Shown here: positions 41,222 to 42,372 of the stretch, piece by piece
Position numbering within the stretch: position 1 is the first letter of the stretch
How the letters are laid out: each line of letters starts with the position of its first letter
NCBI GenBank assembly: GCA_002747805.1
Contig: PDQP01000052.1
Coordinates: forward strand, 1-48,230
Length of the DNA: 48,230 bases
Origin: Deltaproteobacteria bacterium
Lineage (GTDB): Bacteria; Desulfobacterota; Desulfobulbia; Desulfobulbales; Desulfocapsaceae
Reading direction: 5' to 3'
Notes under the pieces: model-generated
What the model was told of the DNA's origin: nothing
The model's input: only the letters and a program-made list of their open reading frames with translations
Databases searched by the model: none
Position numbers and translations under genes: made by a program

Positions 41222-42061
41222 CTATAATTTCTTGAAATCCTTACGTCTTTTTCTCCAGGAATTTTCGCCGGTAACGGTATCTATAAAATTTTTTATGCCC
41301 TGGAAATACTGCTCACCGCCGGTCTCAATCATACTGTTATGCCCTGCCCCGGGGATGATATGAAACTGCTTGTTTCTGGCCCCGCTAAAGGCCTGCAGTC
41401 TTTCTGCCTCGGCGATGGGAATCAGTTCATCCTTCTGACCATGCAGGATAAAGGTCGGCATGGTTATCTGGCCGATTTTATAACGATTATTAAATCCGTC
41501 TGCCTCGGTAAACCCAAGTGCATCGGTATCAATGCCCAGCCGTTTGGCGATTGGAGCAAGGTCGGCAAAGCCGCTTTCAATAATCAGCCCCTTAAAACTA
41601 TCCGGCCGGTTGTAGGCAAGTTCAATGGCACTGGCACAGCCCAGTGAGCGGCCCATAACAAATAACGGGCTGGTAAAGCCGTTTTCCTGCAGCCATTTTT
41701 CTGCAAAATCAAGTAGTTCCCCGGCATCATTCATCAAGGCCGAAACGCTTGGCTTGCCGGTACTCCAGCCGTAACCCCGATAGCTGGTAACCAGGATATT
41801 TACGCCTTGCTCGTTATATAATAAAGCCGTCTTGTTATAATCATTGACCGTTTCTCCGTTACCATGAAAGTACAGGATATTGGGAGCTTCCTTTGATGAG
41901 GAATAAAAACGGCAGCCGATGCTGATATCGTCAATATTCACATCCAGATCACATGCTCCGGGCGGCAGGGGCGTTCTGGCCTGCCGGTGGGGGAAAAAAA
42001 TGGATTTTAGAATAACCGGGTTATCAATCTTGCTGTAATTAGTCATCATGGTCTGCAACAT
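41222..42061 (-). CDS. Alpha/beta hydrolase
   Basis: 'NILYFHGNGETVNDY', 'VMGRSLGCASAIELA' nucleophile elbow, 'ILHGQKDELIPI', 'IPGAGHNSMIE'. Confidence 0.92.
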   Translation of the reverse strand: MLQTMMTNYSKIDNPVILKSIFFPHRQARTPLPPGACDLDVNIDDISIGCRFYSSSKEAPNILYFHGNGETVNDYNKTALLYNEQGVNILVTSYRGYGWSTGKPSVSALMNDAGELLDFAEKWLQENGFTSPLFVMGRSLGCASAIELAYNRPDSFKGLIIESGFADLAPIAKRLGIDTDALGFTEADGFNNRYKIGQITMPTFILHGQKDELIPIAEAERLQAFSGARNKQFHIIPGAGHNSMIETGGEQYFQGIKNFIDTVTGENSWRKRRKDFKKL

Positions 42062-42066
42062 AGCTA

Positions 42067-42211
42067 GGGGAACCTTGAATAATTGTTCTTTCTTCCAAAT
42101 TCTTCGTTACAGTCGAAAATTTATCCTCGGAATATAAACCACATATGCCTGTGGTAAATTTTCTCCTGTGCCTCGAATTTGATTGAAATATCCAATTATT
42201 CAAGGCTCCCT
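42067..42211. repeat. 145-bp long imperfect palindrome (MITE-like or structured RNA candidate)
   Basis: Terminal arms 42067-42085 / 42193-42211 pair at 18/19 positions (perfect 13-bp core CCTTGAATAATTG/CAATTATTCAAGG). Nested internal arms TTTC/GAAA, CAAATTC/GAATTTG, ACAG/CTGT, GAAAATTTA/TAAATTTTC, CCACA/TGTGG. Confidence 0.75.
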
Positions 42212-42245
42212 GGAATATTTATCATCCTGCATTTGCTAGGTATTA

Positions 42246-42275
42246 AAAAAGGGCTACAGAAAACTCCGCAGCCCT
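42246..42275 (-). terminator. Terminator of tRNA-His
   Basis: Minus strand GGGCT-gcgg-AG-TTTT-CT-gt-AGCCC followed by T6. Confidence 0.7.
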
Positions 42276-42294
42276 CAATCCTTTTCCTGGTCAA

Positions 42295-42372
42295 TGGGGT
42301 GGATGACGAGATTTGAACTCGCGGCCTCCTGGGCCACAACCAGGTGCTCTAACCAGCTGAGCTACATCCACC
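42295..42372 (-). tRNA. tRNA-His (GTG anticodon), encoded CCA
   Basis: Minus strand GGTGGATGTAGCTCAGCTGGTTAGAGCACCTGGTTGTGGCCCAGGAGGCCGCGAGTTCAAATCTCGTCATCCACCCCA; cloverleaf, G-1 opposite C73, CCA encoded. Confidence 0.98.

Follow-up and report, generated by a model that had tools for sequence, protein, structure and literature searches.

Sequence evidence for a Desulfobacterota-wide MITE superfamily with a strand-specific folded core between diverse tips

A whole-length palindrome in a 48,230-nucleotide stretch of a Desulfocapsaceae genome (contig PDQP01000052.1, assembly GCA_002747805.1; the whole stretch is called the window here) is, on strong comparative evidence, one copy of a non-autonomous MITE superfamily that extends across the Desulfobacterota. 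The same comparison strongly suggests that the core of the element, which lies between two terminal repeats (tips), has a fold specific to one strand, in the window the minus strand. The most probable explanation is a MITE superfamily with a transposase supplied in trans, in which the tips change, the fold is kept for propagation, and the copies then decay. It is proposed more tentatively that a single MITE lineage crossed several transposase families throughout the phylum, and that its strand-specific folded core is needed for its own multiplication and not by the host.

The complete element in the window spans positions 42068 to 42210 (143 bp), as judged from the GGG...CCC ends common to all copies and from its folding score, and the minus strand is the core-structured one. 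The sequence-only reading had described a hairpin of 145 bp at 42067-42211; its sequence and pairing arms are as described there, and only the extent changes once the shared boundaries are applied. RNA folding of 42060-42215 gives -51.8 kcal/mol on the plus strand, compared with -26.4 +/- 3.3 kcal/mol for shuffled sequences (z = -7.8), and -61.1 kcal/mol on the minus strand (z = -8.2). None of 200 shuffles equals the native fold on either strand, and folding as single-stranded DNA gives z = -7.9 and -8.7 on the two strands. The tips are of type A: GGGAACCTTGAATAATT at 42068-42084 on the plus strand, which also forms the ends of IS5-family insertion sequences (ISs), and GGGAGCCTTGAATAATT at 42194-42210 on the minus strand, both of them exact matches to the type A pattern. 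In L381, the IS has an end that is identical to GGGAGCCTTGAATAATT over 16 bases. No target-site duplication (TSD) is recognizable around the window copy, whose flanks at the true boundaries are CTAG and TGGA; the GCTAGG hexamer once considered a possible duplication is not a TSD.

Directly downstream of the element on the core strand is a 279-aa ORF (41222-42061, minus strand), for which the alpha/beta hydrolase function is a prediction taken from the sequence-only reading. On the other side lie tRNA-His (42295-42371, minus strand; ARAGORN and Rfam) and, between this gene and the element, its terminator-like hairpin (42249-42276, minus strand), found in a consensus scan that returned 3 terminator-like sites, compared with 0.9 for shuffled sequence. 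The tRNA neighborhood had been taken as a telling feature, and turns out to be incidental. The same scan calls a terminator-like stem within the element on both strands, as would be expected if the palindrome were an isolated hairpin, a terminator, or an assembly artefact near a tRNA gene. That explanation is left with practically no probability, being refuted by the occurrence of homologues at unrelated positions, both in this genome and in many others.

The source genome (1.55 Mb, 71% complete) contains four full copies with 88-92% identity and two partial copies, one a short derivative at C22 and the other a fragment lying where a contig ends. A contig that this genome shares with Desulfofustis PB-SRB1 (G013) likewise points to the Desulfocapsaceae as its probable family. 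The window itself holds a single copy, as had been noticed from its sequence, and the three other full copies lie elsewhere in the genome. The C22 derivative (L011:1589-1666, in the source genome G000) lacks the apex of the core and is flanked by the TSD ATAA/ATAA; the derivative may have been mobile despite its incomplete core, or the loss may have come later. Among relatives, 32 of 58 genomes have BLAST matches. Two single genomes, G006 and G011, hold about 92 and 122 matches, respectively. A survey of the phylum with the covariance model of the core, R1, finds the core in 60 of 297 Desulfobacterota genomes, representing 48 of 199 genera. A core pattern scan over 84,980 species returns at least 120 loci; among the matches listed, each title more specific than phylum places its source within the Desulfobacterota, and a few titles give only Deltaproteobacteria, Proteobacteria, or Pseudomonadota. 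No similar DNA was found in plasmid and phage collections, nor was the core pattern found in viral contigs. A core match at L063 was rejected, as it covers only 39 nt at a gene start and about 0.6 chance matches are expected by our own estimate.

Irrespective of its tips, the element is near 141 bp long and has no transposase gene, and 196 of 199 copies lie outside long ORFs as called by a simple ORF caller. In G001, which belongs to the same genus as the source genome, the neighboring genes are syntenic and the spacer is about 130 bp shorter and lacks the element, although this spacer is too diverged for a base-exact junction. The sequence-only reading had left the choice between a MITE and a structured small RNA, and the MITE option is well supported by the dispersed homologous copies with conserved ends in the same genome and in relatives, and by the tip-specific TSDs and same-ended ISs presented below; the orthologous locus in G001 would agree with it.

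The conserved folded core of the window element occupies 42085-42191 on the minus strand, where model R1 scores 99.4 bits compared with 26.1 bits on the plus strand. Among 50 core sequences, 19 of the 30 predicted pairs have changed on both sides (134 cells), mostly in helices 1 to 3; compensatory change, proposed earlier as the mark of a structured RNA, is present. Paired cells make up 94.9% of the core alignment; shuffled alignments reach 85.0% and slid controls do not exceed 45%, and none of 500 shuffles equals the core alignment on any of five measures. Since related sequences can beat shuffles through kinship alone, the slid control and the asymmetry between G.U and A.C cells weigh most. 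These cells number 105 and 21, respectively, and 39 and 18 after the two richest pairs are removed (p = 0.0075). The apical part of the core, CCACAGGCATATGTGGTTTATATTCCGAGG at 42125-42154 on the minus strand, is the most conserved stretch as read from the sequence and the alignment columns, but the conservation of these columns follows from how the sequences were chosen and is given no weight, because most of the 50 sequences came from an exact-pattern scan. The internal loops of the core also keep conserved unpaired positions. Rfam has no family that matches at gathering score, and its sub-threshold matches are weak and unrelated. The evidence for the fold fits either an RNA or a single strand of DNA, where G.T is likewise better than A.C.

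It is quite improbable that the fold is merely a by-product of palindrome maintenance, with one arm copied from the other via template switching and no selection on either strand. Such an origin would accord with a palindrome that spans the whole length of the element and with the decay of resident copies. However, arm copying would produce perfect palindromes, yet the unpaired loop positions persist; moreover, it accounts neither for the preference for G.U over A.C nor for the gap in model score between the two strands (99 bits versus 26).

The same core is found within at least seven tip sequences, and each copy bears two inverted tips. The tips were sorted into types A to I by eye and by pattern, with few members in types E to I. 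Tip sequences beyond these types, such as AAAGCCTGGTTGAAAGCC, occur at L309 (G189) and L318 (G066). The TSDs of the MITE measure 4 bp for types A, B, and D, and 6 bp for type C. Duplications of at least 4 bp flank 58 of 88 type A copies, while about 4 are expected from shuffled flanks; type B has 15 of 22 with 1 expected, and type C has 20 of 33 with duplications of at least 6 bp and 1.5 expected. Copy C18 of the source genome lies between TTTA/TTTA. For type D, CTAG is duplicated in 8 of 18 copies and CTGG in 1 of 18, little over the 6.5 expected from shuffled flanks; this excess is small because the duplicated site is itself nearly fixed, and shuffling cannot tell a duplication from a fixed CTAG target.

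Full-length ISs with the ends of the MITE were found for tip types A, B, C, and D, and all encode transposases with DUF772/DDE_Tnp_1. According to NCBIfam, the type A IS belongs to IS5 (NF033581, 275 bits, cut-off 140), the type C IS to ISNCY (NF033593, 435 bits, cut-off 325), and the type D IS to IS1182 (NF033551, 384 bits, cut-off 270), while the type B transposase, with DUF772 and DDE_Tnp_1, falls under every cut-off. When read by eye, the flanks are TTTA/TTTA, TTAA/TTAA, and TGAA/TGAA for type A, CTTA/CTTA for type B, and TAACTA/TAACTA for type C; those of type D are CTAG. Several IS copies thus have a TSD equal in length to that of the corresponding MITE tip type. The MITE shares its terminal sequences and TSD length with the IS5, ISNCY, or IS1182 element of matching tip type, over a tip match of only about 17-22 bp, but it has no transposase gene, and the core sequence is absent from the IS ends examined. 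At L192, a type A MITE adjoins a type A IS5-family insertion sequence. At L066:4323-6447 in Desulfosediminicola flagellatus, an IS1182-type IS is followed by two tandem type D elements, with CTAG junctions throughout.

In the mechanism proposed here, a transposase from an IS with the same ends, which for type A would be an IS5-family enzyme, recognizes the tips, then cuts and inserts the element. The lineage would have passed between related transposases, so that the tips came to differ while the core stayed. The strand-specific fold would be kept since its bearers multiply better, with the core acting either in transcript form or, during replication, as a folded single strand of DNA, and copies once inserted would decay. 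The window copy is probably a resident relic, because the incomplete source genome yielded no type A transposase.

The tips may have been re-tuned gradually or exchanged whole. That whole tip modules were swapped by recombination with ISs, instead of mutating gradually as transposases changed, is a credible minority view. In Desulfocapsa-type genomes, cores that are 94-95% identical carry different tips, A or B, and a few copies have unlike ends (for example L159 and L043), both of which point to swapping. Gradual divergence fits better with the constant element length near 141 bp and with a mean identity of 53% between tip consensus sequences, against 34% for shuffles, a figure that is indicative only as the seven consensus sequences were written and aligned by eye. 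On the core tree, which is poorly resolved, the tip label changes 24 times, where the minimum possible is 6.

Within the limited power of the comparison, no constraint on resident copies is detectable in the two genomes used, G006 and G011 (type A). Divergence from the consensus in the 39 copies of G006 is 0.089 at phylum-conserved columns and 0.082 at other columns (p = 0.81), and 0.30 of single changes are still paired, compared with 0.27 by chance. For type A copies of G011 the divergence is 0.049 at conserved and 0.071 at other columns, which leans toward constraint (p = 0.22), and 0.29 of single changes are still paired, again compared with 0.27. Double changes that preserve pairing occupy 16 cells in G006 and 11 in G011, some of them probably inherited by subfamilies. 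The copies were hand-picked from model matches, and the two genomes were selected among several sets once others proved biased by sampling. Three further sets (Meg22, Del10, and D. rhabdoformis) looked constrained but were discarded, since selection by exact core match forces such a result. G011 also has two subfamilies side by side, type D (L263, L268-L271, L277) and type A (L259-L262), with clearly different cores. Because resident copies lack detectable constraint, selection is read as acting on copies that are still multiplying; the copies seem to decay after insertion, with no host task at each locus.

These results bear on whether the core is a small RNA or mRNA leader that serves the host, spread by MITE movement and acting on neighboring genes, which is considered unlikely. 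The strand-specific covariation with its preference for G.U would suit such an RNA, as would the position of the window copy, which on the core strand precedes the predicted start of the hydrolase gene by 6 bp. The core also has a mild orientation bias. Upstream and downstream gene counts inform on orientation only for co-directional gene pairs, because divergent and convergent pairs yield fixed values. In co-directional pairs the core strand is the gene strand in 64 cases versus 41 (64/105, p = 0.03), a weak effect, and in 49 of 82 cases in a smaller set. Against a host function stand the resident copies of G006 and G011, the absence of an Rfam family, and the orthologous site without the element in the same genus; furthermore, promoter-like sites at the element are not commoner than in shuffles in the consensus scan. 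The earlier suggestion of a structured small RNA is thus upheld for the structured core and its strand-specific covariation, but not as a host-serving RNA gene, given the mild orientation bias and the lack of detectable constraint.

Some copies carry small inserts of their own. An insert of 16-27 nt resembling AAGCGAG(NNN)CGAGACTNCG, or a shortened form of it, is found at varying sites within copies from several genera (L259-L262, L265, and L266 in G011; L111; L152; L104; L148). In two assemblies, type C copies (L068, L127, L144) contain a GC-rich hairpin, CCTCCGGCCCGTGGGGCCTACGCCCCGGAGG, in their left arm, and this hairpin seems to have been amplified together with them. Further small hairpin inserts are located at the apex or in the left arm (L274, L278; L073).

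Correia/NEMIS and ERIC-type MITEs are palindromic, intergenic elements of about 100-160 bp that rely on a transposase in trans. Each is known for one characteristic tip type, whereas the Desulfobacterota MITE combines one core with at least seven tip types and TSDs of 4 or 6 bp. Integron attC sites function in folded, single-stranded form, keep conserved unpaired bases, and favor one of the two strands. The MITE core would resemble them in its mode of working, through its strand-specific fold and conserved unpaired bases. Unlike attC sites, which are sites for tyrosine recombinases, the MITE has TSDs and the ends of DDE transposases.

Among published systems, the bcr repeats of Bacillus cereus offer the nearest parallel found, going by the accessible portions of the source. 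In these portions, the intergenic repeats bcr1-bcr3 of the B. cereus group are called MITE-like (PMC3446304, citing Kristoffersen et al. 2011), and bcr10 and bcr18 are given as transcribed in 5' UTRs with conserved secondary structure (PMC3446304). As presented there, bcr repeats are short and intergenic like the Desulfobacterota MITE but differ from it in phylum and sequence, and these portions contain no report of one bcr core with the tips of several IS families (PMC3446304). At about 141 bp, the element falls outside the REP/RAYT repeats, which the available text defines as palindromes of 20-40 bp with a GTAG or CGTC tag (PMC3733652).

A literature search for the core sequence and related repeats, with a coverage that mostly excluded subscription papers, returned no description, and the D. 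autotrophicum genome paper, in its accessible part, mentions many repeats but gives no description of the Desulfobacterota MITE. The conserved folded core is undescribed in the databases and literature searched. With the element, a phylum-wide repeat family is added to sulfate-reducer genomes; some of these hold about a hundred copies, and the family bears on assembly, annotation, and gene-expression work in these organisms. Should propagation depend on the core, the interior of a MITE would be partly under selection, and MITEs would be more than empty tips. The differently tipped copies would constitute a natural record of a non-autonomous element changing its transposase.
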